Source of the DNA: a virus
DNA length: 64,000 bases
IMG/VR virus record: IMGVR_UViG_3300030106_006238
Location: 1 to 64,000 of that record
Direction: 5' to 3' (one strand)
Under the pieces are notes generated by a model. That model did no database searches, was not told the origin of the DNA, and saw nothing but the letters and a program-made list of their open reading frames with translations. The position numbers and the translations under genes are program-made. Positions 18,401-59,628 of the stretch are shown here, piece by piece; the first letter of the stretch is position 1; each line of letters opens with the position of its first letter.

Positions 18401-21400
18401 CTTCTTCAAAAGCCTTGTACGCTTTTCGTCTATAAAGGCCAAGGATTCTTAAGGCTTCTCGTTCTTGTTCTCTAAGTCGTCGTTTTTGAGGCCCTCCCTT
18501 TCCGGTCAAGTCTCGAGTCGTAATGATGTCTTGAAGCTCTTCTAAGCTATCAAGAATCTCAATGAGCATAGAGCCTTGCTCAATATCAACATCCATTCCA
18601 TCTATAGGATCTACAGCATCTTTGGGGTTTTGCGGAATGTATGAATCGCTATCAATGTCAGCATTTCTAAGTTCTTGAACAAACGAGTCAAACCGCTCTC
18701 TAAATGGTTGAACAAATTCAATTCCCTTGTCTTTGTTCTTTCTGGAACCAAGAAGCCTTGTAACTTTTGCAGGATCCACTGGCGCTTGAAACATGTGCTC
18801 GAAAAAAGCAAACAACTCGCCTTCATCAATTTCTACATTAGAACGCATTGCTCGAACAATAAGAGCCCTAAAATCTTTATCTACGTTTCCAATTTGAGCG
18901 ATGATTTCGTTAAGAGCTTCAACTGCTTCTGGATTCAAATCTCCACCAGCGAACTGCTCTTTTTTAAGCGAAGAAAGCACAGACCTAAACCTGGTCATTA
19001 CGTTGTCGCCTGAGTCTGGACCAAATTTCTCAAGGGCTGCTGACCCACCTTGTTTAAGAGCGTTCCACCAAGCATACCCAAGTGATTTTGGTATCTTGTG
19101 TGTATAGCTAGTCTGACGAGCTGCGGGGCCAGCAAGGACATCTACTGTTGCTGTTTGAATCGCATTCCATTCATCTGCAGTTACCGTAGTTAGGTCTCTG
19201 TCCCAATCGGTAATGTGCCTTCCAGTTCCTGCAGGAATAGCCTCTAAGGTTGCAGCACCAAGAGGTTCTCTTGCAAGAGATCGGATGTGAATCCTTAGAC
19301 CTTCTGCCTCGAAATCGTTGAATGTAAAAGTGTTGGTAGATGGGTCATAGTTCTTGGTTGCATCGTTGTGTCCAAAGATTTCTCCGAACATTTCATCTAC
19401 AGCTTTTTGGATTTCTTTAACCCTGTTTCTTGGAACAATGCTTTTGGTTGTCATTGGAACCATATCCATTGGATGGCCAAATGTTTTCCGTGCATGTTCT
19501 CCGCTTACATAGCCAAGAATCCTTGCAAACAGATCCACAGGATCAACTTCGGCTTCTCCTGGTCTGTATCCAATTGCTTGTAGAACGTTCTCAAGCCTTC
19601 TATCTACCTGATAAAAGGTTCTTTTTTGAGCTTGTGCAATAGCCGATTCTTCTTCCAGAGCTTTTTCTGTTTCAAGCCTAATCTTGTCGCCAGGAAAAGT
19701 TCGACCCAACTTAGAAGTCATGTCGGAAACGTCTCTTCTAAGAGCCTCTTCTGGCCGCAAAAACCTATCCCAGAATGCGCGACTCTTTGGACTGATTGTA
19801 GACAAACCACGCTGGCGATGCTTGATCCAAAAATCTTGCATGCTTCTATACAGATCGTCCATGGCTCGAGGACTGATTCCGTCTGGAGTTTCAAGCGTAT
19901 TGACGTAGTTCTCAAACACATCCGCAGCATGAGCTGCACCAGATGGGGTCAACACTGGAGAAGTCTTTCCTGAATGGTCAAAGTTTTTAGCAAACGCTTT
20001 GTACCAGGTTTCGCCCATAAGTCTTGCTATGAGCCTTCCGTTTGCTGAAAACAGCTTTCTAAAATCACCAGTCTGAAACAACTCTGTAAGATGAAAAACA
20101 TCTTCATTGGTCATCAGCAATTCATCTAAGACATCATCAGGGTTGCTGTACCTGACCTCATATCTGGAGGTTTTTCTGGGAACCTTGTCAACGTCACTTC
20201 TGTATGTAGAAAACAAATATGGTTCAATGTCTCTTGGAACAGATCCGGTTTTCCCGCCAGAAATAATATACTTTCTAAAATCTTGAGTAGACCACAGTCT
20301 TTCATTTAGTTTGTATTGTTTGATAACCGCATCAGCCAAATTCAGTTTTTCAATCAACGGAAGATCGTCAACCGATTGAATCCAATCAGGAGCGATTCTT
20401 TCGTTTGTTCGCAGTGGACCAAACAACTCTAAACGCAGGTCTGCGTTTCGCCACGAAACATTAAGCCTATCAACATTGCCAAGGCCAAGCACTGATGCAT
20501 CAGCTCCACTTGGACGACCCATTACTGCAACAAAGGAAACAGCAGTTTCGAAATCATGACCAAAGGCCATAAACTCGCCTACTTCAGAAAGAACCTCATT
20601 GATGACCTTCTGCGACGACTCATTCTCTGAAAAGTCAAACCTTCCTTCTCTGATCTTGTTTTGAAGAACTTCAAAGATTCTTTGGTTGTTTTTAGAAATG
20701 CTTTCAGGGGTGTTCTTGATTGGTCCAGAAACCGCTGAAGACATTTCTGCCACAATAAAATCAAGAGCAGCTTGCCTTCGAAACAGAGCTTCTCTTTCCG
20801 CAAAAGATACATCAGAACCAATGTTTATTTTGCCTTCAATAAGTCTTTCTGAAATGTCCAAAATTTCTGGTGGAAACTCTTCAGAAACCTTGTCGTTTCT
20901 AATGTATTTCATCAAGGCTTTAAACTTCTTAACGAAAGCGTCGAATGTTCTTTTCCAATAAGTTTTGTTTTCTGCAAACTCTTTTTGAGCCATCAAAGAC
21001 TTAGGAAGTTCTTTAGTAATCAAATAGTCAGACAAGGTATCAGCAAGCCACTCTGAAAAAGTAGCTTCAGTACCATACCTTCCTTTGAAATCAAGAGACC
21101 TTGACCAGTCTGGAAATCCTTTTGAGGCTTCACGCAAATATGCCGTTCTTAGGGCTCTAATGTCTGTTTCTGGAAGGAAGCTGGCATGAAGAGCATGAAC
21201 TAATTCATGAATGAAAGTTGAAGCTCTCGTTTCTGAATCGGAAAGAGCCAGCATTTCATTCTTAGTCAAACTGGCAATTGTTTCGTTTATTACCTCAGAA
21301 GTTTTGATTCCTATCGAATCTTTTCCTGGGGCATTCCATTTTTTGCTAATCTTCCCAACACTCAAGGTCATTTGCGATGCAAGGGCTAATATAATTTTTT

Positions 21401-24400
21401 CTTCTTGACCTGCAGCGCCAGGACCAAAAACCCTTTCCATGACTTGTTGAGCTGAATGAGAAATGTGTCTTCCCAATTTCTCTTTCAATATTTCTTTGAT
21501 TCTTCTTCCAATTTCTAATCTTGACTTATGGCTTTTGGCATCCATCATGGCTTGAGTCAAAACCGAAACTTGATCAAATACTTTATCGACTTCTTCGGCA
21601 AACAACTCACCGAATTGTTTAAAGTCAATATCTGCAAACTCTTCAATCGGGCCTTCGTTTAAAGGCTTGGCGAAGTTCATTTTAATTTCGCCAGTTCTAA
21701 CGTTGTAGAAGCCTAAATCGGAAACACCAGCGTCCAGGTCTAAAGAACCGGAATCCGACAGGAAAACTTTCCTAAACAATTGATCAGGAAGAATGTCAAC
21801 AAAAGCCATCGTCAACAAGTAGTTGGGCTCATCAATAAAGCCTTCCTCATGCCAAATTGTCAGCTTTTCTTCGAACTCCCTTCTTTGTTTTTCGTATTTT
21901 TTAGTAGGGCCAGCGTCCATCAATGAGTCAGCGTCATCGGCCTTTACAACCCTAAGCCTCTTTACAGCCACTCCGCTAACGTCTTCAACCTCGGCTGATT
22001 CAACTACAGAATAAGGCGCTTTAGGTTTTTTCAGCACGTCTTTGAATTTGTTCTGAAACTGAGCAGACAACTCAACATCAGAAAAAACAATCGCTGCATC
22101 AATGTCTGGAAAGGAATCAACCATCAACTCGATTTGAGCAAGAATAGAATCCAGGGTGACATCTGCAACACTGAAACCTTTGCCCTCAAAAAGAGGCTTG
22201 GCGTCTGTTCCTTCTAAGGTTCTGATTTTAAAAGTAAGCCTATGATTTGGCCCGCCTTTATCAGTCTGCTCCATAAAAACAGCAATGACTGGTTTTCCGT
22301 CAGGACCATCGATAACAACAAAGAGATCCATTGATTCTGGTACTGGGGCTTCACCTTCTTTTAGTCGCCAAGGACCATCAGCTTCTCCTCGCATTACCTC
22401 TTTTAGGACAGGATCTACTTCACCATTTTTTCGAATGACGCTTCTGCGCAAAGGCCGTTCTGTATATCCTTTGCTGTTTGCTTTTGGAGAAAACTCAATT
22501 GGCTTTCCTAAACCAAGATCAAAATCAATCCAAACGCCGACATTGCCCAAATCAGGCTCAAACTTTCTTGGACCAAAATCGGTTTCAATAGTGGTCGGCC
22601 TACCGGAATGAGTTGGTGGCGGAGCCGTTGGTGTTTCTCCTGCTTCTGGATCAACATCAACATCAGGGTCGGCCTTCTTAGGCTCAAAGCCGTCTCTTTC
22701 AAACTTAATACTGACGTATTCAAAGAACTCAATGGGATCGTAGATTCGATCTTCCATTGCATATCGCCAAGCTTGTTTCTCAAGACTTGTAAGAATCGTT
22801 GGAATCTCTGCCCGATCAATAAACCCTTTGTCGGCAGCGTTATACAAATCAGTTTCTACACGCTTATATGCATCTGATTGACGTGTATTAATAATGTTTG
22901 GGTCGCCGTAAGTAAGCAAGTGCTCAATAGTTTTGAGCGCTACATCTTTTCTTTTTGCGGCAGTGTTCTTGAGATTCTTTAAAATCGTTTGTCTTGGAGT
23001 GCCGGTAACGATTTCATAAATAGTTAGAACTTCATTTAGAACGTGACTTGGAACGGTTTCAAGAAATTTTTCCGCCTCAATGCTGTTGAGAGAACCATGA
23101 GCCATAAGCTCAATCCCTCTTGAGGCCAAGGCATAAATATCGTTGTGCTTAATCTCAGGGATTGAGTTTATTGAATCTCCAAAACCCTCCCCGGTTTCTT
23201 TCATTCGAGAAACTACAGCATCTAAAACTCTTCGCTCATGCACACCAAGCCGGTCATCGTCAGAACGACTAAGCCTTTCTAAAGCTTCAACATTGTCTAA
23301 ATCAGCGTCACCAACAATGTCTCGAATATGATTTACAGCCCGAGTGACTTCTAAATCTACACTAAACCGTTTAGACCTAAGCCTCGGAAACATTGAAGAC
23401 AGTGTGGCGTCTAATCTAAACGCTACCGTGGGTTTCTTTTTGGCATCAAGAGCAACACCACTCGCGTCGTCTTCCCAAAAACCCTTTCTTCCTGTTGGGT
23501 GGCTCCAATAACTCCATGTGTTCCAGCCTCTATGGGCGGTTCTATAAACTTGACCAGTAGCCCAAAGAGGCGGCGCTTCCCAAGGAACCAACCAATCTGC
23601 AAGGATTCCGACGTTACCCCAGAACAGAAACTCTCCAGAGTTTCTATCAACACCCTTGGCATACATAAGGTCGGTCATGTGCCTAGAAAGACCCATCTCG
23701 CCAGTGTAAATGTTGGCAAGAACACGAGCTAAATAAGACGTGTTTGGATCTCTTACTCGCTTGTTTGGAGACCGGGCAAAGTCGATTCCTGCTGGAGTAA
23801 ATGGAAGAGGAGCCTCCATAAAGACTTCTTGAAATCCACCAACGACTCGCATGATTCTGCCGATGCTGCTTTCTTGAATAACGATTTCGCCATTTTCAAT
23901 GGCGGTTTCCATAAAAATCGTTCCAAATGCTCTTGCTGCGGGAACCGTTGTTCTGCCGCCACTCGTAAAGATTGCATCTATGTCCGCACCAGCCGCAAGC
24001 AAAATGGAGTCCATAAAGCTTTGTTCAGACGGAATAAGGTTGTCTAAAAGCTCAGGGAAATACTTTGCAATCAAACCAATCGGAACAGCACGAAGGTGCC
24101 TACGAATTTCGTGGTCAGTAAGTTCGTTGTTCTCAACAGCTATAAGAATCGTTCGAATCGCTGGAGGAACATCCGATTGAGTGAGCTCATCGTACTTTTG
24201 CTGGCCGAGAAGCTTAAACTTAGCAAGGTCTAATCTGCCTCGAATAACGTGCTCAGGCATTTCTGAAATAGTAAGACCAAGGATAAGGTGTCGAACAGCG
24301 TTCTTTACATCTTCATCTTTAGATGCTTGTTCAACAGACATTCCATTGTCTAAATATACACGAACAGATTCGATTACCCTGTTCCAAGTCTCCGCTGGCC

Positions 24401-25859
24401 TCGACCTATTAATCTCGAGCTGAAGACGCCTAGCATCTTCTTTATTGTCAGCGAAAAAAGGAATGTATTGATCAGCGATGCCGGTAAGGATTTGAAACCG
24501 CGTTGATAAGTCTACAAGACCTTGTGGTGCTTTGATTTGAGCAAGGAGGCCATCTCTTCCCATTGGAATGCCTCTCCAGAAATCTGGAGTGTTTCTTGAT
24601 GTCCTTGACAATCCGTAGCCAATAAAACCAAACAGTAGAGCCGAGCCAGTAATTTTTAAAGCGCCACCGCCAGAAAACTTTCTAAGTCCTTTAAATCCTG
24701 GGTATTTTTTACCGCCAGGATCCGGTGCAAGAAAATAATCAGCAGGCCCCACTCTCGGAGGAAGCTTGCCTTGATACTTGTGCCCTTCTGGAAGAAGAAC
24801 AGTTGCTTTGACTTCTGGATAAAGCCATTGACCAAGACGGGTTTGAGCAGGCCCTTTTACTTTTCCGCTGGGAGCAACCGCCTCAACGGCCTTGGATGCT
24901 GTGTAGCTAAAAGGGCTTCTTGTAAACGGGTTGGCTTTAACTGATGGAATAAAGTACGGAGTGCCCGTAACTTTTGTTGCTGCCCAAGCTTGTGGTCTTC
25001 CTGTGACCAATGACGCGCCAATAATACCAGCACCAACTCCGACTGTTCTATCAATCCAGTCTGCACCGTTTTGAATCGCGTCAATATCAAAACCTAAGTT
25101 TTGAGCCTCCTCTCCAGTCATCATGGTCTGACGACCCATCGCCATAGCAAATGCTGGGAGAATGCCCTCGGCTCTCATTGCGGTATCGATGTCTCGAGCC
25201 AATTGGCGACGATTTTCAAACCTTGCTTGAGGTGTTGGGGTTGCTTCAGCAATATCAATTGTTCGATAATTGAAGATCCCTGAAGCCATAGTAAGCGTGC
25301 TTACATTGTTTTTTAGAGTTGATGGAATCAGGCTGGCATCGATGTCATCAATCATAGACTCGATTTCGCTGTCTTCAGCTCCAGCATCTATTGCATCATA
25401 AATTCCAAAGACAGCGCTGTCAGGATTGGTAGTAAGCCTCAACCCCTCACGCCTTTCTCCATATCTATTTTTAAAATCTGAAAGACTGGGCTTTGTTCTT
25501 TCTGGTATTCCGTGCAGGTTTCCAGAAAACTCTTCGTTGCCGACATGGGCAAATTGAAGTTTTCTCCTTGCTAATTTAAGTGCGTCTTCTCGACTAAGAT
25601 TGTCGTCGATTCTCATCGATTCATCAGCAAGCGTTCTAATCGTCTCCTCTGCCTGGTTCGACATCTCAAGAGGAGTGACACCAGGAAGCGCAGGAGATGA
25701 AACCTCACCGGCAATTTCTATCTCTGACGCGGTTACTGACCTGCCGGTGCCTTCAGAACCTTCACCTTCTTCTGGCTCTCCAAGAAGCCGTGTTTCTGCT
25801 CTTCGCTCTTGCCGCTCTCTCCATACTCGAGCCCGTCTTTCTTCTGTAGTTTCGGCCAT
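15486..25859 (-). CDS. Giant (3457-residue) virion-associated protein, probable DNA-ejection protein, with an HExxH metallopeptidase site
   Basis: A single 10.4-kb open frame, the largest gene in the window, with hydrophobic segments near residues 280-300 and 400-425 (ALKITGSALLFGFIGYGL) that could insert into a membrane. Residues 1551-1555 are HELVH, a zinc-metallopeptidase HExxH motif, with a downstream EWLADTLSDYL stretch that could supply the third ligand. The C-terminal 900 residues contain many helical segments typical of large polyvalent or internal virion proteins. Size recalls N4 virion RNA polymerase (about 3500 residues), but I could not find its DxxGR or RxxxK-type polymerase motifs. 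Located between the ejection-like proteins and fibres; function is inferred. Confidence 0.78.
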   Translation of the reverse strand: MAETTEERRARVWRERQERRAETRLLGEPEEGEGSEGTGRSVTASEIEIAGEVSSPALPGVTPLEMSNQAEETIRTLADESMRIDDNLSREDALKLARRKLQFAHVGNEEFSGNLHGIPERTKPSLSDFKNRYGERREGLRLTTNPDSAVFGIYDAIDAGAEDSEIESMIDDIDASLIPSTLKNNVSTLTMASGIFNYRTIDIAEATPTPQARFENRRQLARDIDTAMRAEGILPAFAMAMGRQTMMTGEEAQNLGFDIDAIQNGADWIDRTVGVGAGIIGASLVTGRPQAWAATKVTGTPYFIPSVKANPFTRSPFSYTASKAVEAVAPSGKVKGPAQTRLGQWLYPEVKATVLLPEGHKYQGKLPPRVGPADYFLAPDPGGKKYPGFKGLRKFSGGGALKITGSALLFGFIGYGLSRTSRNTPDFWRGIPMGRDGLLAQIKAPQGLVDLSTRFQILTGIADQYIPFFADNKEDARRLQLEINRSRPAETWNRVIESVRVYLDNGMSVEQASKDEDVKNAVRHLILGLTISEMPEHVIRGRLDLAKFKLLGQQKYDELTQSDVPPAIRTILIAVENNELTDHEIRRHLRAVPIGLIAKYFPELLDNLIPSEQSFMDSILLAAGADIDAIFTSGGRTTVPAARAFGTIFMETAIENGEIVIQESSIGRIMRVVGGFQEVFMEAPLPFTPAGIDFARSPNKRVRDPNTSYLARVLANIYTGEMGLSRHMTDLMYAKGVDRNSGEFLFWGNVGILADWLVPWEAPPLWATGQVYRTAHRGWNTWSYWSHPTGRKGFWEDDASGVALDAKKKPTVAFRLDATLSSMFPRLRSKRFSVDLEVTRAVNHIRDIVGDADLDNVEALERLSRSDDDRLGVHERRVLDAVVSRMKETGEGFGDSINSIPEIKHNDIYALASRGIELMAHGSLNSIEAEKFLETVPSHVLNEVLTIYEIVTGTPRQTILKNLKNTAAKRKDVALKTIEHLLTYGDPNIINTRQSDAYKRVETDLYNAADKGFIDRAEIPTILTSLEKQAWRYAMEDRIYDPIEFFEYVSIKFERDGFEPKKADPDVDVDPEAGETPTAPPPTHSGRPTTIETDFGPRKFEPDLGNVGVWIDFDLGLGKPIEFSPKANSKGYTERPLRRSVIRKNGEVDPVLKEVMRGEADGPWRLKEGEAPVPESMDLFVVIDGPDGKPVIAVFMEQTDKGGPNHRLTFKIRTLEGTDAKPLFEGKGFSVADVTLDSILAQIELMVDSFPDIDAAIVFSDVELSAQFQNKFKDVLKKPKAPYSVVESAEVEDVSGVAVKRLRVVKADDADSLMDAGPTKKYEKQRREFEEKLTIWHEEGFIDEPNYLLTMAFVDILPDQLFRKVFLSDSGSLDLDAGVSDLGFYNVRTGEIKMNFAKPLNEGPIEEFADIDFKQFGELFAEEVDKVFDQVSVLTQAMMDAKSHKSRLEIGRRIKEILKEKLGRHISHSAQQVMERVFGPGAAGQEEKIILALASQMTLSVGKISKKWNAPGKDSIGIKTSEVINETIASLTKNEMLALSDSETRASTFIHELVHALHASFLPETDIRALRTAYLREASKGFPDWSRSLDFKGRYGTEATFSEWLADTLSDYLITKELPKSLMAQKEFAENKTYWKRTFDAFVKKFKALMKYIRNDKVSEEFPPEILDISERLIEGKINIGSDVSFAEREALFRRQAALDFIVAEMSSAVSGPIKNTPESISKNNQRIFEVLQNKIREGRFDFSENESSQKVINEVLSEVGEFMAFGHDFETAVSFVAVMGRPSGADASVLGLGNVDRLNVSWRNADLRLELFGPLRTNERIAPDWIQSVDDLPLIEKLNLADAVIKQYKLNERLWSTQDFRKYIISGGKTGSVPRDIEPYLFSTYRSDVDKVPRKTSRYEVRYSNPDDVLDELLMTNEDVFHLTELFQTGDFRKLFSANGRLIARLMGETWYKAFAKNFDHSGKTSPVLTPSGAAHAADVFENYVNTLETPDGISPRAMDDLYRSMQDFWIKHRQRGLSTISPKSRAFWDRFLRPEEALRRDVSDMTSKLGRTFPGDKIRLETEKALEEESAIAQAQKRTFYQVDRRLENVLQAIGYRPGEAEVDPVDLFARILGYVSGEHARKTFGHPMDMVPMTTKSIVPRNRVKEIQKAVDEMFGEIFGHNDATKNYDPSTNTFTFNDFEAEGLRIHIRSLAREPLGAATLEAIPAGTGRHITDWDRDLTTVTADEWNAIQTATVDVLAGPAARQTSYTHKIPKSLGYAWWNALKQGGSAALEKFGPDSGDNVMTRFRSVLSSLKKEQFAGGDLNPEAVEALNEIIAQIGNVDKDFRALIVRAMRSNVEIDEGELFAFFEHMFQAPVDPAKVTRLLGSRKNKDKGIEFVQPFRERFDSFVQELRNADIDSDSYIPQNPKDAVDPIDGMDVDIEQGSMLIEILDSLEELQDIITTRDLTGKGGPQKRRLREQEREALRILGLYRRKAYKAFEEGKTPDFSEADRRAMGDALYRLRKSVKEKEEAVIQRGRIILGAFVGGMGVELTKRVPDVDLGAVYSLFYTGKLDELMAYVSNNFKTKVGTRPDQMPNFNPGLAMMEVMVRLRCMDLVEGLNKTLLRSGIGLSTWDIARSGRGKILEQGPEGAEHVGINEDLYYQRVLFYLNQEQHYLLARRVYFKKVESGEVEYQYQEFPDAPRQDTTTEGIFPSDEITKAADNFFPRDTLDNVHDMMAYEAAMDILDRLGIEPSKRGFERYVTPDGQEMFMPSAVVMEIENAYDRVSRVGSAYGPRAATPNTDRLTQSVSERIQERDLNVRVGMAVNEAAQTLAALFPMTFRNVRMGVTTGIGIPNPAYYMGVGMGGFFQMYQGMGITGTIRALFRNASQTKAVVVALYKDGLTKNGRRMSIDYSPDAPPLVTRHGMVYSTEQLIRLTENAGLKSSFIHAETIQALTKDLERMFSGKPVWAKTVGRGGREWQRTLIETATAMDNFYRVSIFLDYLERGFTPAHAAERARKFLYDYADLSEAEKSVGRNLIMFYSYMRKNLDHFWETLLTNPARLIGQIRLVRGVQQVYLSDDPEIMMKEYQINRLPVFIRNTQINTQRNAQIAYITPPLPMMDALNLYVDIVDAAGPLRGKTTREDALRGLASRFMPHIQALPVLATGQDIFYNRSLDDYNKVPPWLVELDRAITGGMIVDGAFNITPRSHLDATKADQIGLPEQGWFHAKNGKAWWIWRNLMQTPGGGRSMDTFNWLDRANTGILEAFVAATRSASRKLDRPILKPFGPTWSEMRADPTAYVDSYGDPMSARHTLDRPMRQLHPRMNMMELTLTSDMSEDEVRSKAASVGVKDVWMKNTEGEYKIHLNDVITLLMEKQATAFSLSELAGMFGMKPVYLPTRSTVRARSQTRAKNRMLMQERQAALSIDPNVEQTYSAEKKEALEEAQLQAEEERVRRGSRFRQGLNYEEW

Positions 25860-28684: not shown

Positions 28685-31600
28685 TTATTGGTCCGATTCT
28701 TGAGCTTGTTGTACTGCTTGTTTTAAGTCTCTAAATTCTATAGAGCTTGAATCGATTTCTTGGAAGTTGTTTTCAACCGGCTGGTCGCCCATTTGCCTTT
28801 GAAACTGTTGCTGACGAATAGGGCTGCCTTCTTGAACAATCATCTTGATTGCTCTCGCTGGTAATCTCTGTTCAGGCTGATCAAAGTAGTATCGATAATA
28901 AAAACCATGATGCATGCCGTCTTCTGGAGCGCTGTCCCATCTCACATAGTCCATATATTTGCCACCAAAGGAATCTTGCCCTTGAGAGTTTAAATAATAA
29001 GTACCTTGGTTCCTTTGTCCCTGGGTAAGGTTTGGAACCTGACCAGTTGTAATGTCAGGCTCGCTTCTGGAACCACCGCCAAGGCGTGGAAGAGTAACTT
29101 GCAAACTTGGAATTTTTAAGAAATCAAACCTCCCACGTCTACGACGCCTTGTAGTCTTTGGTTTTTCAGTTGGGTCCGCATCTTGTTTTGACTCTTCTAA
29201 AGTATATGTAGGATCAGGAGTGATAGTGGTAACCTCGCTTTCAGGTTCGCCTTCTTCCTTAGGCTTTGGTTTTTCTTCTTCTACATCCGGCACAGTTTCT
29301 TCAAAAAGATCACGGTCAGGTTCGTCTTCTATCTTTGGCTCAGGGACGATTCGTCGCACTTCACCAATTTCTCCAGTCACACCTGGTGTCGGAGCTTCAG
29401 GGACGATTCGTCGCACTTCACCAATTTCTCCAGTCACACCTGGTGTCGGGGCTTCAGGGACGATTGGTTTCCTGGTTACTTCAGCAAAACCACCTCCCTC
29501 TGTTTCAGTAGGCTCTAAAGGATCACCTGTTTCAGTCTGCTCAATCTTAATCTCAGGCTCAGGCTCAGGCTCAGGCGTAGGCGGAGGCTCAGGCGTAGGC
29601 GGAGGCTCAGGCGTAGGCGGAGGCTCAGGCGTAGGCGGAGTTACAGGCTCTTGTGCCATTCCTTCTGAAAGCTGTCCCGCCAGCCTGGAAATACGATGTT
29701 CAAACAACGTAGGTCTGGCCCCTTCCTTAAGGTTTCCTTGTTCGTCAAACGTTCTGGCAATCTCTCGTAGGGCCTCAGTTCCTGCTGCACCTCTTTGCTC
29801 TGCAGGCAAAGCCATAAGAAACGACTGTAGTTCGTCTAGTTGGGCCTCATAGCTGACGCCTCTGTTGATAGCGCCCTCAATGCTCATCAGCTTATCAAGA
29901 AGGTTTCCTCGAATGTCTCGTTCAGCCTTCATTTTAGAAAAGCTATCTTCTCTTGCACCAGGGGCTGATCTTGCAGATTTATCAGCAGAAGCGAAGACCC
30001 TGTCTGTAACATCAGAAGATACGTCTTCAGAAAGAAGCTTCAAGATATTAGAAGGCTGTCCACCGATCTTCTGAATGTCTTCGTCAGTTAGACCTGGAAA
30101 CTTTTCTTTTAGCTTGGCTGCGTCATCCAAAATTTCTGGGTTTGCTACAGCCTGATCATAAAAACTAAGAGCGCCTTTTACTTCATCAATCGTGTCTTGA
30201 TTAAAAATAGCGCCAGCATCTGATCCGCTTGCCCTTAAGTTTTCAGCCCGAGAAAGAAAAGTCGCAAACCTATCTCTGCTCTGTTGTGCAATATCGGCAT
30301 TTTCTTCGGCACTAAGATCGGGGTTGTACCCAAAAGCAGTCCCGCCTTGAGGCATAATCGAAGACATTACGCTTCCAACAACGTCTCCTTCTGAAAAAGA
30401 CAAGTTGCCTCCTTCGTCTATTCCTGAAGAAAGAAGATACGGATCTGGATCTTCAGGAATCTGAGGAGTCTCTCCAAAAGGTTCTGGATATCTTTGTCTA
30501 AACCTGTTTGGATCAGCATCTAGTTCAGTTTGAAGGCGAGCTCGAATCTCTGCTACTTTGTTGAGCTGGCTTTGTGATGCCCACTCTGGAGCTGAAGCAA
30601 GACGTTCGTCCAATCCTTCTCGGGCCAACTCATGTCGAAGAGCAACATCTACAGGCTCTTGGCTGCCAAAAACGGTTTCTTCATAAATATCAGAAACGTA
30701 TTCAGCGTCTGGACGAGGCTTGATTGCCTGAAAAAGAGAATCAAGACGACCCCGTCTTTCGCCTTCTGGAGAAATTACTTCTCTGTTGGCGCGATATCTG
30801 TCAGCAACACTCTCCATTTCCTTCTGTTCGTTTGTTTCCATCTGACGAACGATTCTGTCAACCGCATCAGGATCAACCTCTCTCAGCATCCTGGTTCTTC
30901 TTACAGCGCTAAAAGCAGGGCTTGTAAACTGAGAAAGAGATTGGGTGGCCATATTAATGCCGCCCATCGTGTTCATAAGTGAATCGTACTGCTGATCCGC
31001 GATCTCTTGACGATCATAAAGATTGTCTACTTTGTTTTGAAGCCGCTCAATGTGCCTATCAATACGACTAAAATCAACCGGCTGATTGAAGTAGGAGTTC
31101 TCGTCAGTAGGTAAAACAGAACGAACCTGAGGAGCCGTGCCTCCCGCTCTCAATCTATCGTAATGTTCCTCAGAAACATCTCCATAGTTGTTCGCCATCC
31201 ACAAATTCATAAAGTCAGAAAGCTTATCGTCAGGGATTGTTTGCGAAACCCCAGGGCTTGCGTTTGGATCTTGCCCAAGCATTCCTCCGCTATACAGCAT
31301 TCCAGCAAGATCGTTACTGACAGTTGGGCTGCTTCCTCTTGAGATCACGTTCGTGTCTACGCCAGTAAATGAATTAATAATAAAGCGAGCGCCAGCGGGA
31401 TCGCCTGAATCTAAGGCTCTTTGAACTAAAGCTTGTGCAACTGCGGCTCTTCGGATTGAGCTTGGATTTCGAACAACACCGGCTGCTGCGTCTCCACCAA
31501 GCTTCGTCATTGCTTCTTGGTATTTTCCGCCCCAATATTCGGAGGCGCTTTGGGCATTGTTTCCTTGCGCTCTTTGTGCGCCTTCAATTACTGCAGTCAC

Positions 31601-34522: not shown

Positions 34523-35407
34523 CTATCTCCTATCTACATGCACAACGAGGTTTCTTCCAGCAACAAAAACATGCTTCCAACTACCCGCAACAAAATCTGG
34601 AGTAACATTTGGAGAGTCTCTACCAAAGCTTATGGCGCTTCCGTTTGGATAGTATTCGCCCATGCTGCTTTGCAGTGTTTTCATTTTTACTCGAATACCA
34701 ATGTTGTGCACACCAATGGGCAATTTAACGTTTTTCATTATTGAAAACTGTTTTCTGGCACCAATCCAGTTTCGTCGTGTGCCGGTATACAAATACCTAT
34801 CGGTGCTTTCCAATCTGTTGTCGTTTACAAACAGAGCAAATTCAGCAGCAAGAGTGTTTTCGTAAGTGCCGTTTTGATGCCTAACGTCTGAACTGTCGTC
34901 TTTTCCAGTAAGAGAGCCTTCAACATTCTCTCCATATTCACTACCAGAACCACCCATATCAAACGCATAGAAGCTGGCTAAAATAGTAGCGATATGATCT
35001 TCTGAAACAAACCTTGATTCAACCTTGGCGTTGTTAACTGCTCGTTCGAATGGTGGTGTGACTTTCACAGTTGATACAAGACCTGGAACCCAAACCCAAT
35101 CGTCTTGTGTTGCTTGTGAATGGTGAATAGAGCGCTTTTCGGTTCCATGGTCTACATGTCGATGATAAACCAAACAACTGACCCCTTCCATTCTTGGAGA
35201 AGGGGCTCCATAAAACTCAGACTTAAATATGTGCTGTGTCTTCACCCATCTCTTGTCAGATGAACTGGCCGAAGTTCCTGTGCCCTGAAGATCAGACGAT
35301 TCGATGCCATAGTTGACATAGTTTTGCATGCCATCGTAAGCATCATCAAAGTACCCAACATCTACCTGATCTCCGCTTACTGGGTCGTTTGGAAAGTACT
35401 TTGGCAT
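34523..35407 (-). CDS. Fibre- or tail-associated protein, one of three with related ends
   Basis: A 294-residue beta-rich protein. Its C-terminus (FVAGRNLVVHVDRR) shares a pattern with the ends of the two genes upstream (YDRELIIHARYR, NANLNCAHYKR), so the three are likely distant paralogues. No catalytic motif seen. Probable tail appendage or fibre base; its start follows the frameshifted gene's stop by two bases. Confidence 0.65.
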   Translation of the reverse strand: MPKYFPNDPVSGDQVDVGYFDDAYDGMQNYVNYGIESSDLQGTGTSASSSDKRWVKTQHIFKSEFYGAPSPRMEGVSCLVYHRHVDHGTEKRSIHHSQATQDDWVWVPGLVSTVKVTPPFERAVNNAKVESRFVSEDHIATILASFYAFDMGGSGSEYGENVEGSLTGKDDSSDVRHQNGTYENTLAAEFALFVNDNRLESTDRYLYTGTRRNWIGARKQFSIMKNVKLPIGVHNIGIRVKMKTLQSSMGEYYPNGSAISFGRDSPNVTPDFVAGSWKHVFVAGRNLVVHVDRR

Positions 35408-35409
35408 AC

Positions 35410-36074
35410 CTATCTCTTGTAGTGGGCGCAGTTAAGATTAGCGTTTCTAATCGTAAAGTAACATTGGTTGTTTCTAAAAAACCTGGTGTCTCCTTCGTAT
35501 TCGTAGACTCTAAACTGAACACCAATCCAAATAGAATCACCAGGCGAGGGTTTTGGCCACGCTCTTCCGTCACGGCCAGTAGAAGAATCGTTTAGAACAA
35601 GTGTGGTGCAAATGTTGTTCTTGTACCGTGAGCTGCCGATAGCTTGCCTAGGATATGCAGATAAAGCCTGTACCCCATTGTCATTTTACCAAACTTGGGT
35701 ACTGCTTTATGGCCGTTTACATCAGTAGGCATAATGAGCCCGGCATTAAATCTTACTACAACAGTAGATTCAGTTGTGTTGTATTTAATTGGGCCAATAA
35801 CAGAAGGAACGTTGCCTCCACTTGTGTACCAAACGACACGCCATTCATCTTTGTAGTCTGGGGCATATTTTTGAATACTGCCGCCGTACTGCCATTCATG
35901 AAACTCGCTTGTAATTGCAGCAGTTTGAGGAGCAAACATTCGCTCATCAAGGCCTTCGTCGCGAACATTAGAGCCATTCACCGTAGAAGATTTCCAAGAA
36001 TCTACAGTGTCAGTCACATCTGAAGGGTTCATTGTAGACCCTTCTGTGATGTCTGTAATCGTAATCTTACTCAT
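35410..36074 (-). CDS. Fibre-like protein with an apparent -1 frameshift
   Basis: The 160-residue frame from 36074 stops at 35592. A second minus-strand frame, open from 35685 to a stop at 35410-35412, encodes a protein-like sequence ending IRNANLNCAHYKR, matching the ends of both neighbours. It has no ATG, GTG or TTG start. Joining the two requires a -1 shift between about 35592 and 35688, giving a protein of about 220 residues. The gene would then end exactly two bases before the next start, as its neighbours do. I see no classical slippery heptamer, so a sequencing error, a mutation or an unusual shift are all possible. Confidence 0.6.
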
Positions 36075-36076
36075 AG

Positions 36077-37036
36077 CTATCGATACCTCGCATGAATAAT
36101 GAGCTCACGATCATACATAACAACTGGCTTTTTTAGGTTTAGTGTGAAGATGCCTGGTTCATCGTTAGAAACAAACGCTTTTCTAACCTCAACAACAACC
36201 TCATGAAGTCCTGCATCAACAGGGATAGCGCCCACTAAATACACGTTTTCTTTTTGGCGGTGGTCACTAAACCATCCACTTTCACAAACAGTAGTTCCGT
36301 CTACAACTACACGAAAAGCACACGCCCCATATAGAGCGCTTGGGCCAATCACAAAAGCTTCTCGTGTTTTTACAGTGTCACTTCTTAGGCGATCAGTATC
36401 CTGATAAACCGAGCTTTCATGAATCGCTGTTCCATCATAGGTAGCATTGATAGAACCATGAGACCCTGTGGCTTTAAAAAACCCGTAACCATTTTTAAGA
36501 TGAGTGTTTCCGTTTCCCTGGTAATCGATGGCTTCACACAGATAAAACAATTCGTTATCTGGATGTTCAGGCGTAGCAACACCCGTAGGCTCACTGTTCG
36601 TATCAAACGGAACCCAGTTGTGTTCTGTTCCTTTCAGTCTGTCTACAGGGTTCCATTCAAAATGACAGCTAAACTCAATAGATAAAAGAGCTTCTGATTC
36701 AAGGTCTATAGTGGTTCTGGCATATTCTTGGTTTGTCTGAGTTGCGTTTTCAAATCCCAGACTATGCCAGCCAGATGAGTCGTTATCAAAAGTAGTAAAC
36801 TGACTACAGTATTCACTATTAAACTGGTTTTTAAAAAACTGATTGAAAGCATTGTGAGCAACAAGAGGAGCGTTGTCCTCAAGGCTTCTTTCAACAGAAA
36901 AAGCCTCTTCCCTAAAGTTGTCCCGATCCAAATAGCCATTGAACTCAGAAGCCACCTCTTGATTGTTTAATTCCCAATCTCTTGGATAAACGGTGTCTCC
37001 AGAGGCTGGCTTGAACTGTTTATATCGCCACGCCAT
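36077..37036 (-). CDS. Fibre- or tail-associated protein
   Basis: A 319-residue beta-rich protein, N-terminus MAWRYKQFKPASGDTVYPRDWELNNQE, C-terminus YDRELIIHARYR. It shares a terminal pattern with the two genes that follow in the transcript. It directly follows the nozzle-like gene (two bases), fitting a tail appendage connected to the nozzle. Not recognised as a known family. Confidence 0.68.
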   Translation of the reverse strand: MAWRYKQFKPASGDTVYPRDWELNNQEVASEFNGYLDRDNFREEAFSVERSLEDNAPLVAHNAFNQFFKNQFNSEYCSQFTTFDNDSSGWHSLGFENATQTNQEYARTTIDLESEALLSIEFSCHFEWNPVDRLKGTEHNWVPFDTNSEPTGVATPEHPDNELFYLCEAIDYQGNGNTHLKNGYGFFKATGSHGSINATYDGTAIHESSVYQDTDRLRSDTVKTREAFVIGPSALYGACAFRVVVDGTTVCESGWFSDHRQKENVYLVGAIPVDAGLHEVVVEVRKAFVSNDEPGIFTLNLKKPVVMYDRELIIHARYR

Positions 37037-37038
37037 GT

Positions 37039-39510
37039 TTATCTCCTAGATGGTGCAAGGGCTTCGTTGAGAGGCTTAATGTTTCTTTGCTCACCCATCT
37101 TTGCTTCGATGTCATAACCAACGATTTCAATTCTACGCGATTCGCTTGTAATCTCAATTTGTAATTCTCGAGCTGGACCTTTTTCTGCAGCACTTACATC
37201 GAAACGAACAACAGTTGGCCGGACTTTACCCCAAACACCAGTTCCCCAAAGAGCATCGTTATACACAGACATTCTGTCATTAGGGTCTTGCTGGTCTGCG
37301 CCTTGAACAGAAGACCTTACCGTAGATAAAGACCTGTTTACGTTGTAGTTCAACTGCATGTTGTTGTTTCCGTTTGAAATCGCGTAAACAAAAACATGAG
37401 CCGGTTGAATCGAGTGATAGACGCTTCCAAAGTCTAAAGACACAGTTTTAAAAGAAGGAGTAATCGAAGCGCTTCCTTTGGAAGAAAACCCACGAGAATA
37501 AGCATACAACCCAGGATAATCAGGATCGTTGCTTCCAAAATATACATAGCCGCGATGATCTCTGGTTTCGATCATGCACTGAATGGGAAAGTTCTCCCTT
37601 TTACTCCAAGAGCCAGATGCATAATGATAAACAAGAACAGTATCGTTTTCTTCACTGTCTCCATATGGCACAGCCAGCCAAAACTCTTTGTCTCTGTGGT
37701 AGATAGTTGCGCAGGCTCCAACCGCAGAAGACAGGTTGATTTGTTCAATCTCGTTTGGAATCGGGGTTGAAAGTTGAACAAGCCTGGTAGGCGTTCCTGT
37801 GTTTTCAAGAGCGCCTTCAAGAATCCAAACCCCGTCTGTTCCAAGAAACGCCAATCCTAAACTTGGAATTTCTGCCAAACTTTTTGGGGCCATACACCCA
37901 ACATCTCGACTGAGCGTTTCAGCATAAAACCCATCAGAAGGATTTCCTTTTAGCAAATAAACGCCACGGCTCTTTAGTACAACAAGAGCGTTTTTGGTAG
38001 CATACAACCCTGTGATCTGACCCCCATCAGCATCACCAATGTTGATTACGTTAGCAGGCGGAAAAACCTCTGGATACAAAGGCGCACTGTATCGAAGAGT
38101 GTTGTCATTCTCTCCCGCAACAAACATTGTGTTTTTGAAAACAGCCAAGTATTTTGAGCCTCTTGGAAACTCTCCAAAAGAATCTTCTACTAACAAAGAG
38201 CCAAGAAAAGCATCTGGTCTTCCGTCTTCAAATCTTGAAGTAGCGTTGTCTTGGATTTCAGTAAGAAAGAAATAATCTTCACCGTATCCAAGGTTGTGAA
38301 GGTTTCCGCTTGAAGCAATCATGTTGCGCGTTCTGTAGACTCGACGAGCAACAACTTCTGGACCGCCAACAGGAACATCAAGAAGAATAAAGGTTCTTCC
38401 ATCTTCATTGACTTGCGACCAACCGTCGTCACTTTTGGTTTCAACGTCATAGGCCATCCATCCATTTTCAAAAAATATGGTTTCAGATGGAGCCGAAGCA
38501 GGAGATTCTTGACCTCGCTCGTTTACAAAAGTAACGACATACCGATATGCGTTTCGCCGCTTGTTGTCTTCTCTTTCAGTGTCTGTGTTTAGATTAGCTT
38601 CGACATAAGCGTTTTGTGAACCAACACCAAGAACTGGAAGTTCCTTGTATAGCTTCGCTTGATCACCCAAAGCACCGTTATGTGATGGAATTCTAAACAT
38701 AGATGCGTGACATGCCATTTCAGATCCAACTTCACTAAGAGGCGTTCCTTGTGGTGTGCCGGGTGGTGTTTGAAATCCGGCAATCTCTGCCTTCGAGCCA
38801 TCAAAAACAATGGGAGCATCATACCCATTGACAATGTAAATTCGATTTCCCCATGTTTGAGAATGACTTCCAGCAGACGGCCCATCGATAACAGTCCTGC
38901 CCGTCACTGCCAAAGGAACGTTCGAGGCGAGAGAGTTGTCGTAATAACGATCTCGATCAGACTTCTGTAGTTTGTATACCGGGCTCCAGGGATCCAAAGA
39001 TGATGCTTCTGAAACTCTTGAACCATTGAAATAGTACAAGCCACCCAGCTCGTCTTCCCAAAGAGTCCATTGTCGAGCCCCGTTGTGCTGAGCAAACCAA
39101 TGAAGACTAATGATGTCTTTAGTGCCGCTCGCCCAAGGGTTTACCCTGGTAAAAGAAGACCAACCAGATGATGCCGCTGTCCAGGCTTTAGCTGCTCCAT
39201 ATGAGCTTGCCTGTGGATACGATGTTCCAAACCCGGCTTCTACATCTTTGTTTACTCGTTTTTGAGAATCATCGGTTCTGTCTACATACCTTCCGTAGTC
39301 ATTATCATCAGGAACCGAGCGAGTTTTTTCTGAATCTGGTGGCTCTTTGTATTCAACATGGTTTACCGACAAACCCCAACCACCAGAGTCCTTCCATGAA
39401 TCCTTGGGACTCCATGTCATGTCAGTAATTGTTTCAGCCTGTGTAGCATTGGCTTGCCAACGCTGATCCATTCCGCGAAGACTTTTTACTGAGAATGTTT
39501 GAGTCTTCAC
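37039..39510 (-). CDS. Tail nozzle-like protein (podovirus tail tubular protein B / P22 gp10-like)
   Basis: An 823-residue protein beginning MKTQTFSVKSLRGMDQRWQ with beta-propeller-like repeats. The stretch around NVINIGDADGGQITGLYATKNALVVLKSRGVYLL is typical of podovirus nozzle proteins, which extend the short tail below the adaptor. It is next to the adaptor-like gene, the expected order. Assignment is by pattern and context, without alignment. Confidence 0.78.
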   Translation of the reverse strand: MKTQTFSVKSLRGMDQRWQANATQAETITDMTWSPKDSWKDSGGWGLSVNHVEYKEPPDSEKTRSVPDDNDYGRYVDRTDDSQKRVNKDVEAGFGTSYPQASSYGAAKAWTAASSGWSSFTRVNPWASGTKDIISLHWFAQHNGARQWTLWEDELGGLYYFNGSRVSEASSLDPWSPVYKLQKSDRDRYYDNSLASNVPLAVTGRTVIDGPSAGSHSQTWGNRIYIVNGYDAPIVFDGSKAEIAGFQTPPGTPQGTPLSEVGSEMACHASMFRIPSHNGALGDQAKLYKELPVLGVGSQNAYVEANLNTDTEREDNKRRNAYRYVVTFVNERGQESPASAPSETIFFENGWMAYDVETKSDDGWSQVNEDGRTFILLDVPVGGPEVVARRVYRTRNMIASSGNLHNLGYGEDYFFLTEIQDNATSRFEDGRPDAFLGSLLVEDSFGEFPRGSKYLAVFKNTMFVAGENDNTLRYSAPLYPEVFPPANVINIGDADGGQITGLYATKNALVVLKSRGVYLLKGNPSDGFYAETLSRDVGCMAPKSLAEIPSLGLAFLGTDGVWILEGALENTGTPTRLVQLSTPIPNEIEQINLSSAVGACATIYHRDKEFWLAVPYGDSEENDTVLVYHYASGSWSKRENFPIQCMIETRDHRGYVYFGSNDPDYPGLYAYSRGFSSKGSASITPSFKTVSLDFGSVYHSIQPAHVFVYAISNGNNNMQLNYNVNRSLSTVRSSVQGADQQDPNDRMSVYNDALWGTGVWGKVRPTVVRFDVSAAEKGPARELQIEITSESRRIEIVGYDIEAKMGEQRNIKPLNEALAPSRR

Positions 39511-39512
39511 GA

Positions 39513-40853
39513 CTACCCCGTTTTAGATGGTATTCCCCACCGTTCGCGTTCATACAGTTGTTTATCAAATCCTCTTCGAACCAAGATTCTTTCGTTTCTG
39601 GCCAAATATTTAGCCTTCATTTGGTTCAATAGAATATTTGCTCTGCCTTCAAAGATTCCAGCTTGCTGAGCCATTCCGTTCATAAGACAGATGTCTTGAA
39701 GCGATCTGTATACAAGCAAGGAGTGATAGGCGGCAGGCCATTCTGGAACATCTTGATCAGCGTGCAAGCGTCTCATTCCAATAAGATATCGAACCTCAAC
39801 ATCCATATCAGAGCCTGGTGTATACCAAAACCTCATGTATGGACGAGGCTGTTGAAAATCTAAAATCAGATAATCGCCGTAGTTGTATGCTGTAGATGTT
39901 CCGTTTTCTGAACTAAAAGCCGTAAAGAGCTCATCATCAACATACGTTTGATCTGTAGAAGGCATTTCTGCAATTCTAAACCAAGCTCCGTTGTTGGTTT
40001 TATCTCTTCGATAGATATTGCTTGTGACTCCAGAATCCTGCCATGACGCAGCGGCTACAGTGTTTCTAAACTGAACATTGTCAAGACCACTGATAGTAAT
40101 CTGAGGCTCTCCTGAAGACGCAGTGGTCACAGAAGAAACCAAAGAAGGAGGAGTCTCTCGCCCTTCCCGAGTATGCGTATAGCAGTACTGGTATTCAGTA
40201 CTATTCAAAAGAGGATTAGTAGCAGCAGCGCCTTGAGTTGTAGCAGACAAAGTTAGAGCAATCTCAGGAGGACGGTCAATAATGAACTCATCTTCAATAT
40301 AGATCGTGGCATCCCCTGTGATGTCTTTGTCTAAGAAATGCTCTTCTTCTTTTCTCCTGTCGATGTACATAAGACGACCACGATCATCGTGTCTTGACAT
40401 GACGCCAAGAACCTCTGTAGCCAAATCTGGAAGAGGATAGCGTCTAAACTCAACGCTCCAGGTGGTGCTTGCATTAAACCTGGCTGTGGGCGTAGTAGAC
40501 AAAATTACTTGAGTGCCGCTGATATACTGTTGAATTGTATATTCTGAGGCACCATCAACAAGCGTTTGTCCTTCCATCTCTTCAGTAAAAGCCGACGTAG
40601 AACAAGTTACAAGCCGCCAGTTCTGGCCAGCGTCTGTTAGCGCTGGAGTTGTGATCGTTGAGGTGGAAGAACCACTAACAGTTCCCTTTAGACTAAGAGT
40701 CGTCACCTTCTGCAAGAAAAGCCAAGGAAACTGTGTACTGATGTGTTGGTAATGGCGGTTTACAACACGAGAAACTTGGTCACGATACGCAGCCAAATCA
40801 GGGTTGTAATCAAGAGCTGAAAAGATCTCTTGTCTTATTTCTTTGAAGTTCAT
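39513..40853 (-). CDS. Tail adaptor / connector-like protein
   Basis: A 446-residue protein. The N-terminal 50 residues (FKEIRQEIFSALDYNPDLAAYRDQVSRVVNRHYQ) form helices typical of head-tail connector adaptors; a beta-rich insertion follows and the C-terminus is helical (YHSLLVYRSLQDICLMNGM). Sits between the terminator after the capsid genes and the nozzle gene. Consistent with the gatekeeper or adaptor that joins portal to nozzle in podoviruses. Confidence 0.72.
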   Translation of the reverse strand: MNFKEIRQEIFSALDYNPDLAAYRDQVSRVVNRHYQHISTQFPWLFLQKVTTLSLKGTVSGSSTSTITTPALTDAGQNWRLVTCSTSAFTEEMEGQTLVDGASEYTIQQYISGTQVILSTTPTARFNASTTWSVEFRRYPLPDLATEVLGVMSRHDDRGRLMYIDRRKEEEHFLDKDITGDATIYIEDEFIIDRPPEIALTLSATTQGAAATNPLLNSTEYQYCYTHTREGRETPPSLVSSVTTASSGEPQITISGLDNVQFRNTVAAASWQDSGVTSNIYRRDKTNNGAWFRIAEMPSTDQTYVDDELFTAFSSENGTSTAYNYGDYLILDFQQPRPYMRFWYTPGSDMDVEVRYLIGMRRLHADQDVPEWPAAYHSLLVYRSLQDICLMNGMAQQAGIFEGRANILLNQMKAKYLARNERILVRRGFDKQLYERERWGIPSKTG

Positions 40854-41474: not shown

Positions 41475-42533
41475 CTAGAAGGTTTCCATGTCGAATGCGA
41501 CACCGCTCGAGCCAAGGTGCTTGGCAATGAGCTGTCCACGGCAACGGAGTTTCGCGGCACGAACGTCGTACTCACCAGACACCGTCTCGAAGTCCGAGAG
41601 GTCAAAGTATCCCTCTGGATCCCACAGACAGTGAATGTCATTCATGTTCAAGAAGTAGAAGCTGGCTGGATCTGCGGTCGTACCAGGAGTACCACCAGCA
41701 GTTGGCATGTTGTACTCGACATCAATCTGGATGCCGTCCCACAACTGAACCATACGGCCACCGTCAATCGCGCTTTGATCAACGTAGCGCTCCTGTGCCG
41801 AGAGAGCTCGCTTGAGGTTCTTGAATCCAGCACGGGAAGCAAGAATCACATTGGGCGGGCCAGACGGGCTCACAGAGTTGATTTCAACGAGAAGGTCATA
41901 AAGACCAGCCAATCCGTTCGCATTGAACGAGGCGGCTCCATCGAAAGATTGGTTCTGCCAACCAGTCTTGTCCTGATGGTTTGTCTTGTTGACGCCACCA
42001 ACAGCGTTGGTTTGCTGACCTGCACCCAATTCCTCAAGGAAACCGTTTGCAACACCAAAGTTGTTATCGATACCGTTGAGAGTGTTCCAGTCTTCCCAGC
42101 CGGTAACGCTTCCCTGCACGATTTGTTTTACAAAATCACGCTTGAGAGCGTTTGCAGTCATCTTGACGCGAGACTCAAGAATAGAAAGAACCGCAGATTC
42201 GCCCTGGTTAATAAACTCTTCTTCTGCCGAAATGGCCACTGGGCGCACAACGTGACCCCAAGTGTACACTGCAGGCACGAAGACATCGCTCACAGACAGA
42301 TCGATTCGTTCGAAACCAGTCTGAATACGAGTGGTGCTGGAATGCTCACCAAATCCGAGGGGAACCACAATCTGAGTTCCACCTGCTTGAACAGGGTTGC
42401 CTGCTCCATGCACGCGCTCAGCAGCGTCAAGAAACGCAACAGACTCATGTACGTTGTCACGAAACTCCTTCATAAGGACGTGCATTGTCGTAGAGAGTAG
42501 TTCATTACCGAGGGTAAGTTGGGTAGTTGCCAT
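41475..42533 (-). CDS. Major capsid protein
   Basis: A 352-residue protein. The N-terminus (TQLTLGNELLSTTMHVLMKEFRDNV) and the segments QIVVPLGFGEHSSTTRIQTGFERIDLS and SPSGPPNVILASRAGFKNLKRALSAQERY are typical of HK97-fold capsid proteins. It lies between the scaffold gene and the decoration gene, in the order scaffold, capsid, decoration along the leftward transcript. No protease gene is seen, so a separate prohead protease may be absent or unrecognised. Confidence 0.88.
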   Translation of the reverse strand: MATTQLTLGNELLSTTMHVLMKEFRDNVHESVAFLDAAERVHGAGNPVQAGGTQIVVPLGFGEHSSTTRIQTGFERIDLSVSDVFVPAVYTWGHVVRPVAISAEEEFINQGESAVLSILESRVKMTANALKRDFVKQIVQGSVTGWEDWNTLNGIDNNFGVANGFLEELGAGQQTNAVGGVNKTNHQDKTGWQNQSFDGAASFNANGLAGLYDLLVEINSVSPSGPPNVILASRAGFKNLKRALSAQERYVDQSAIDGGRMVQLWDGIQIDVEYNMPTAGGTPGTTADPASFYFLNMNDIHCLWDPEGYFDLSDFETVSGEYDVRAAKLRCRGQLIAKHLGSSGVAFDMETF

Positions 42534-47205: not shown

Positions 47206-48765
47206 TTAACTTCCAGCAGAGAATGGGTGCTTTATTGCTGTATAACGTCGTCTATTGGGGTTGGTGGGCAGTGCTTTGGCTTCAGGCATATCTCGACGGT
47301 TCCATTCGGCCAGCATTAGAGCATCTGCGTGATCATCATGGTAGCCATCTTGACCTTCAATCTTTCCGCCCTCTTCTCGAATGTGCATAAGTTCCTGCAC
47401 AGTAGTCATATCATTTAAAGTCAAAGCATCACCATTTACCATTTGGCGAAGGTGCGCGTAACCATGTTCCTTGGATCCTCTAGATGTTGTCCAGTATCGT
47501 GGTCTCTTGGATGCTTTTTGACCAGGCTCCGATGGTTTAGTCCAAAGGGGCATTCCGCATTTTATGAACTCTCTAATAATAACTGTGCCCGCTCCGCCTG
47601 GGTTTGATTCAATCAGTGCGCGAGCCTTGTTGAAGTGCTGTGCCAGCTCAATCACTTTTTGCGCAAACAGCAACTCTCCCCCCTGATTCATAGACAATGT
47701 TGCAACCTGACGTCCATCTGCAGACAAAACCTGAGCAACAGCGTAGTCGCCACCATTGCACCATGACGGGTCAATACCTATTGAATAGTTCAAACCAGGA
47801 TAAGGTCTTTCAAAGATTCTCAGTTCCTTATTAGTCTGAGGAAGAGAAGAAAGAACCTCATTGAGGTAGTCTCCGTCAAACCAGGCACCATCAAATACAG
47901 CAAACCCATCTTCAAGGGTAAGCGGATACTCACGACGGAACTTGTGAAGTCCAACACCGTTGACGCCATTAATCTTCTGATGACGCCAATAAAGCTGTGC
48001 TGGACTTAGACGGTGGACTTGTGCTAACTCATATTCCTCTTGATCTGGTTCCCAATCACTTGGAGGAAGTGCCGCATACGCTGGATGGTCGCACCAGCGG
48101 AAGAAACGAAAGACGACTGAGTCGTCGCCAGATTGGATAGCGCGTTGCGCAGATAATACTTTTTCATGGAACAAATTCCCTGGTCCGTTTGCAGTTGAAA
48201 GAATGATGACCTTACGATGCGGACCCTCATGCATAGTAGAGGTAACAGATGCCCAGACTTCTTCCGCGTTTGGCCAATAAGCTAGCTCGTCGGCGTGCAA
48301 ACGCTGAAAGGTCCAAGCGCGTGCTCCGCCCTTACCGCCAGCCGTCATACAACGGAATCCGGCATTTGTATCATCAAAGATCAATTCTTTTCGTGAAGAT
48401 CGTAGTGTTGGCCGCTTTAACAATGTCGGCAGCGTGCGATAGAAGTACTGCAACTTATCAAAAATAGCATCAGTTGCATCGTAAGTATGCGCAACTACTA
48501 ATGTTTTTACTGGATCCTTTGCCCAGTAGGTATAGTCAAAGTTGTACGCGCAAGCGACAGTGGTATCTCCAATCTGTCGAGGCTTGTAATGAACAATCGT
48601 TTTAGCCTGGGGATTTAAGAAATCATCAAGTGCAAGAACCTGCTCAGGGAAAGGATTGTTAAAATACGCATCCATCCCCTTCTCATCGACCAGACGGAGC
48701 CGTGAGATAAACTCGGCGGGATCACCAGCGAGAGCGTTTAGCTTTGCATCAAGTGAAGCAGACAC
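47206..48765 (-). CDS. terL: Large terminase subunit
   Basis: A 519-residue packaging motor. The ATPase region shows a deviant Walker A, KPRQIGDTT at residues 61-69 (aspartate where GKT/GKS usually has the lysine), and a Walker B-like RLHADE with D159 and E160. The C-terminal nuclease shows D332 (GIDPS), E386 (IESNPGG) and DDHADAL with D477-D481. These three acidic positions are the classic terminase nuclease set. Stop and start overlap with the neighbouring genes. The missing canonical lysine may be replaced by K61; otherwise all motifs are as expected. Confidence 0.88.
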   Translation of the reverse strand: MSASLDAKLNALAGDPAEFISRLRLVDEKGMDAYFNNPFPEQVLALDDFLNPQAKTIVHYKPRQIGDTTVACAYNFDYTYWAKDPVKTLVVAHTYDATDAIFDKLQYFYRTLPTLLKRPTLRSSRKELIFDDTNAGFRCMTAGGKGGARAWTFQRLHADELAYWPNAEEVWASVTSTMHEGPHRKVIILSTANGPGNLFHEKVLSAQRAIQSGDDSVVFRFFRWCDHPAYAALPPSDWEPDQEEYELAQVHRLSPAQLYWRHQKINGVNGVGLHKFRREYPLTLEDGFAVFDGAWFDGDYLNEVLSSLPQTNKELRIFERPYPGLNYSIGIDPSWCNGGDYAVAQVLSADGRQVATLSMNQGGELLFAQKVIELAQHFNKARALIESNPGGAGTVIIREFIKCGMPLWTKPSEPGQKASKRPRYWTTSRGSKEHGYAHLRQMVNGDALTLNDMTTVQELMHIREEGGKIEGQDGYHDDHADALMLAEWNRRDMPEAKALPTNPNRRRYTAIKHPFSAGS

Positions 48766-58385: not shown

Positions 58386-58500
58386 AAAGCATGCGCTATT
58401 GGATGTGCTTCTAGTGCAGGAAGTAAATGATCTTCTCCATTGTAGGGTCGCGCCCATGAATGGCACGAAGAACAGCTAAGAAAATCACCAATAGTGGCGG

Positions 58501-58536
58501 CCCGATCATCGTGCACAGATGATCGGGTTTTCTTTT
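58501..58536 (+). terminator. Strong intrinsic terminator
   Basis: A perfect 10-bp stem, CCCGATCATC and GATGATCGGG, with a GTGCACA loop and TTTTCTTTT after it. It ends the second accessory operon. Confidence 0.9.
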
Positions 58537-58564
58537 GAGCTGCAGTACTATCACTGTTTGGGGA

Positions 58565-58636
58565 CGTACCAGGTCGCGCCGTCGTTAGGGGACGGTCCAA
58601 GTCGCACCGTCGTTGGGGGACGTACCAAGTCGCACC
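58565..58636 (+). repeat. Intergenic element 3: three tandem copies, 28-bp period
   Basis: Copies at 58565, 58593 and 58621, exactly 28 bp apart. Variants are CGTACC, CGGTCC and CGTACC followed by A(A/G)GTCGC(A/G)CC. The intervening bases (GTCGTTAGGGGA type) are also conserved. A CAGCTCAA motif follows at about 58637. Confidence 0.88.
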
Positions 58637-58676
58637 AGCTCAACAAATCACCAGCTCCTTTTTTCTGGTGCCAAGG

Positions 58677-58705
58677 TTGACAACGGGGGTGAGAAATGCG
58701 ACATT
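58677..58705 (+). promoter_or_regulatory. Rightward promoter (TTGACA-N17-GACATT)
   Basis: TTGACA (58677-58682), 17 bp, GACATT (58700-58705). The -10 is imperfect, but position, spacing and downstream gene are consistent with the other promoters of this block. It serves the genes at 58751-59597. Confidence 0.55.
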
Positions 58706-58750
58706 GGGGGTGGGAGAGGACGGTCTTCTCTCAATCACCACGGAGCACCA

Positions 58751-59026
58751 ATGAGTAGTCAAAACACAATCATTTCAAACCCAGAGTTCTACACTCCACT
58801 TTCTGAGTTGCGCCAGTACTCCGACAAGTACTTAGCAGAGGCCATCAAATGGGAGCCACTCTACAAAGGCTGGACCGTATACGGAGACGCCACATTGTAC
58901 GAATGCCACATCCAAGGCGACGAGAACACCATTGTAATGGTCATTGGCGGTAAGGCTTATGACACAGGGCATTGGGAAATCTCAGATCTCCGAGAGCACG
59001 AACCAATCCAAATCAACTTCTTTTAG
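58751..59026 (+). CDS. Hypothetical accessory protein
   Basis: A 91-residue protein from ATG 58751 after a CACCACGGAGCACCA leader. Mixed alpha/beta with WYxG-type turns (YKGWTVYGDATLYECHIQGDE). No family recognised. Followed by the GCAA hairpin at 59043. Confidence 0.68.
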   Translation: MSSQNTIISNPEFYTPLSELRQYSDKYLAEAIKWEPLYKGWTVYGDATLYECHIQGDENTIVMVIGGKAYDTGHWEISDLREHEPIQINFF

Positions 59027-59042
59027 AACTACAAACCAACCA

Positions 59043-59059
59043 GGGGGGCGCAAGCCCCC
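59043..59059 (+). terminator. GCAA-tetraloop hairpin between accessory genes
   Basis: GGGGGGC-GCAA-GCCCCC between the stop of the 91-residue gene and the next leader. Same design as at 57863 and 61992. Confidence 0.6.
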
Positions 59060-59079
59060 AACACCACGGAGCACAAAAA

Positions 59080-59597: not shown

Positions 59598-59628
59598 GCA
59601 GCTCGCTTTCGATTCAACAGCAGCGCGA

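Follow-up and report, generated by a model that had tools for sequence, protein, structure and literature searches.

A gene divided between two overlapping reading frames

Is a phage gene that lies in two overlapping reading frames decoded by programmed frameshifting, or is it a broken gene? This question is raised by IMG/VR virus record IMGVR_UViG_3300030106_006238, for which we analyzed bases 1-64,000 of a 69,735-base (69.7 kb) viral contig; this whole stretch is called the window below. On the minus strand, an upstream ORF of 160 aa runs from an ATG at 36074 to a stop at 35592. A downstream frame opens at 35685, directly behind a TAA at 35688, and runs to a TAG at 35412-35410; no ATG, GTG or TTG start codon was found in it between 35685 and 35410. 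Relative to the upstream ORF this frame is in -1 register, and the two overlap by about 94 bases. Gaps of two bases separate the previous gene (36077) from this middle gene and the middle gene from the next one (35407). The split frame is real: we recovered all coordinates of a preliminary description of the locus, with the startless downstream frame and the two-base gap before the next gene.

The setting of the gene was defined from its neighbours. The minus strand encodes a terminase (47206-48765), a major head protein (41475-42533) and a 446-aa protein (39513-40853) with a weak, below-cutoff match to the SU10 adaptor. These are followed on the same strand by an 823-aa virion protein matching phrog_511/phrog_3287 (37039-39510), an intact gene of 319 aa with intact homologues in all relatives (gene 1, 36077-37036), the broken middle gene, an intact gene of 294 aa (gene 3, 34523-35407), and further genes. 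Judged from these neighbours, the broken middle gene is part of a tailed phage's cluster of virion genes. Its product is probably a tail or other surface/virion protein, and the label of tail gene, which comes from position, is probably reasonable.

The middle gene lacks 103 bp present in its nearest relative

The alignment with relatives that had been proposed as the deciding check was carried out, and both the near relative and eight distant ones proved to have one undivided middle ORF. The nearest relative found, IMGVR_UViG_3300030107_006089, is about 92-94% identical in DNA in the middle-gene region, and its middle gene is one uninterrupted ORF of 255 aa (locus L002:630-1397). It is the same gene between the same neighbours, with protein pieces 88-96% identical to those of the window, and differs in being uninterrupted and in having 103 bp that are absent from the window. 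This intact homologue bears out the earlier proposal that one ancestral gene extends over the two frames, the downstream one encoding its C-terminus. In the DNA alignment of the window with L002, a single gap of 103 bases was detected in the window, and all other differences were substitutions.

The junction lies at 35664-35667 on the minus strand, where 4 bp are common to both ends of the absent block, as seen from the overlapping ends of the HSPs (window 35664/35667 against G001 47110/47010). The breakpoint is ambiguous over these 4 bp, which gives five equivalent positions. End homology of 4 bp is found in only 1.8% of random (all possible) deletions of 30-300 bp in the middle gene; short homology of this kind is a common, though not a necessary, mark of genes disrupted by a deletion. 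At the protein level, residues 1-143 of the relative matched one frame at 90% and residues 171-255 matched the other at 96%; the first match overruns the junction by a few residues, the native sequence stopping at residue 137. The native 5' part (35664-36074) corresponds to residues 1-137 of 255, with 88-90% identity to the intact ORF, and the native 3' part (35410-35667), in -1 register and without a start codon, to residues 171-255, with 96% identity over 85 residues. Residues 138-170 of the relative are missing from the window. The truncated ORF closes with an out-of-frame tail of 23 residues and a stop (35592-35663), which has no match to the relative in the ORF frame; in the -1 frame the same DNA is native coding DNA, 96% identical to the relative there. 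The switch at 35664-35667 has the first frame native upstream and the second frame native downstream. A -1 shift between about 35592 and 35688 had been proposed to join the frames: the -1 register holds, but its cause is the 103 bp missing at 35664-35667.

Comparison with the near relative also brought out features elsewhere in the window. A single ORF of 3457 aa (15486-25859, 10.4 kb) is 92% identical in the near relative. Within a 1111-aa gene, short repeats at 29250-29640 (PTPEPP and EAPTPGVTGEIGEVRRIVP units) carry many insertions and deletions between the two genomes, and repeats of about 28 bp at 58496-59650 (units such as CCAAGTCGCGCCGTCGTT...) differ in copy number.

One uninterrupted middle ORF in the distant relatives

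To find more distant relatives, the 823-aa neighbour was used as a search bait. This gave eleven more viral contigs, and eight of them cover all three genes of the set (L008, L010, L012, L013, L014, L016, L017 and L018). Each of the eight has one uninterrupted middle gene, of 227-383 aa, with the same neighbours, and none of the nine relatives, the near one included, shows the overlapping two-frame layout. Since all eight agree in this, the single ORF appears to be ancestral and the window the exception, that is, the derived state. The missing segment belongs to a variable region of the protein, and its alignment to the distant relatives is poor and loose. Direct homology of the segment is therefore weak evidence that it was present in the ancestor; the strong evidence, on which the case mainly depends, is the continuity of the reading frame.

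The three small virion genes

We then considered the three small adjacent genes as protein families. In all relatives (eight spanning loci), these three virion genes (34523-37036 in the window) come after a virion protein of 700-1240 aa. The preliminary description had noted that the end of the middle gene resembles those of both flanking genes and had called them paralogues. The C-terminal likeness is real, but it is short (NLNCAHYKR, ELIIHARYR and NLVVHVDRR), and proteins of the three families mostly finish with a short strand and, after it, basic residues. Profile comparison showed genes 1 and 3 to be alike over their length (92%), and about 54 N-terminal residues of the middle family to match gene 1 (62% probability, E 7e-5). 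Paralogy is upheld for genes 1 and 3, and for the N-terminal region that the middle gene shares with gene 1, but not for the middle gene and gene 3, which have hardly any likeness (17%).

Searches of PHROGs and Pfam with the three small genes gave no family above cut-off, only sub-threshold chance matches, and because of this the three look like undescribed families of virion proteins. The middle gene had no DNA or protein match among named phage records and no match in GTDB genomes, and comparison of a low-confidence, beta-rich model of its protein with the PDB gave nothing convincing. The model of gene 3 (pLDDT 54.5), a weak one with a jelly-roll-like predicted C-terminal domain, was compared with BFVD, where its matches were to viral collagen-like/C1q proteins and to phage tail-like proteins, with poor TM-scores. 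It suggests, with low confidence, a jelly-roll knob or beta-sandwich like C1q-type domains. Our guess from these models is that the three genes may encode small fibre- or knob-like virion proteins.

Origin of the split frame

Programmed -1 ribosomal frameshifting, by which one gene yields a short and a long product like those of lambda gpG/gpGT, is what the -1-register overlap and the startless downstream frame call to mind. In lambda, this shift operates in the tail assembly chaperone, which works with the tape-measure protein (PMC5009743). The window is similar in having two overlapping -1-register frames within a virion-gene cluster, but differs by its missing DNA block, by a layout that is not conserved in any relative, by the kind of gene, and by the absence of a slippery site: no XXXYYYZ heptamer was found in the 0 frame over the whole ORF (36074-35592). 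Likewise, the fold of 35580-35690 was no better than shuffles (z = +1.0) as a stimulatory RNA structure, a feature frequent in programmed frameshift genes and not obligatory. Moreover, the -1 fusion product would be short of 34 residues present in the nearest relative. The absent block is not a multiple of three (103 = 3x34+1), and because 103 mod 3 = 1 the apparent -1 join is a coincidence. We consider frameshifting very unlikely, and the earlier suggestion that it makes two versions of a tail protein fails on the missing 103 bp, the single ORFs of the relatives and the lack of a slippery site. The converse history, in which the window has the ancestral state and two genes were fused in the relative by a gain of 103 bp, draws its only support from the weak alignment of the missing segment to distant relatives; with a single middle ORF at the same place in eight of them, and a downstream frame in the window that lacks its own start codon, it is just as hard to credit. 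A sequence error had also been suggested. Runs of AAAA (35687) and GGGG (35676) are both near the frame junction, but the relative has the same two runs, and the gap measures 103 bp rather than a single base. A one-base error in these homopolymers is excluded by this alignment, and we give it practically no chance; the idea of an error survives as an artefact of assembly or a chimera.

A 103-bp out-of-frame deletion, biological or assembled, is by contrast very probable as against any programmed shift. Weighing against it, the parent sequence is deduced from one close relative about 8% different. Most likely, either the deletion is recent and took place between short repeats, or the assembly took in a molecule that was chimeric or in the minority. 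Short direct repeats are known to give rise to deletions by slipped mispairing or illegitimate recombination, and amplified libraries too can give short-homology junctions. The window resembles such deletions in that one block is lost with 4-bp homology at its ends, and nothing notable differs; a biological event and a library artefact both fit. A literature search on short-repeat deletions in phages found nothing of use. That the deletion is present only in the assembly or library, the phage gene being intact, is a serious possibility, though a little short of even. All nine relatives have the middle gene intact, the junction sequence had no match in any other viral contig searched, and all other compared genes of the contig are intact. 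Of the roughly 30 ORFs (100 aa or longer) that the window and the near relative have in common, only the middle gene is split between frames, so errors are not widespread in the contig. Against an artefact, assembler overlaps far exceed 4 bp, so that some read or amplicon must have carried the junction; substitutions flanking the junction also look like normal divergence. We rate a real and an assembled-only deletion as close to equally likely, with a slight lean to a real one, since no assembler would join on 4 bp without a junction-bearing molecule. After the junction, 3 synonymous and 3 non-synonymous changes were counted, too few to date the break.

If the deletion occurred in the phage, slipped replication or illegitimate recombination between the 4-bp direct repeats would probably have removed the 103 bp, which lie midway through a domain predicted to be beta-rich (weak model, mean pLDDT 48.7). 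The shortened gene would yield only a truncated product of 160 aa (137 native and 23 foreign residues), and its 3' third would be left as an unread frame. We infer a loss of function of the middle gene.

These results call for caution, as a startless downstream -1 frame that mimics programmed frameshifting may be the trace of a larger deletion with a length of 1 mod 3, which one close relative suffices to expose. Annotation of this contig should flag the middle gene as disrupted. A real and fixed deletion, with a phage viable on a truncated middle protein of 160 aa, is improbable in our view; if true, it would mean that the neighbouring small virion proteins cover the role of the middle gene, or that its loss is neutral or useful to the phage.
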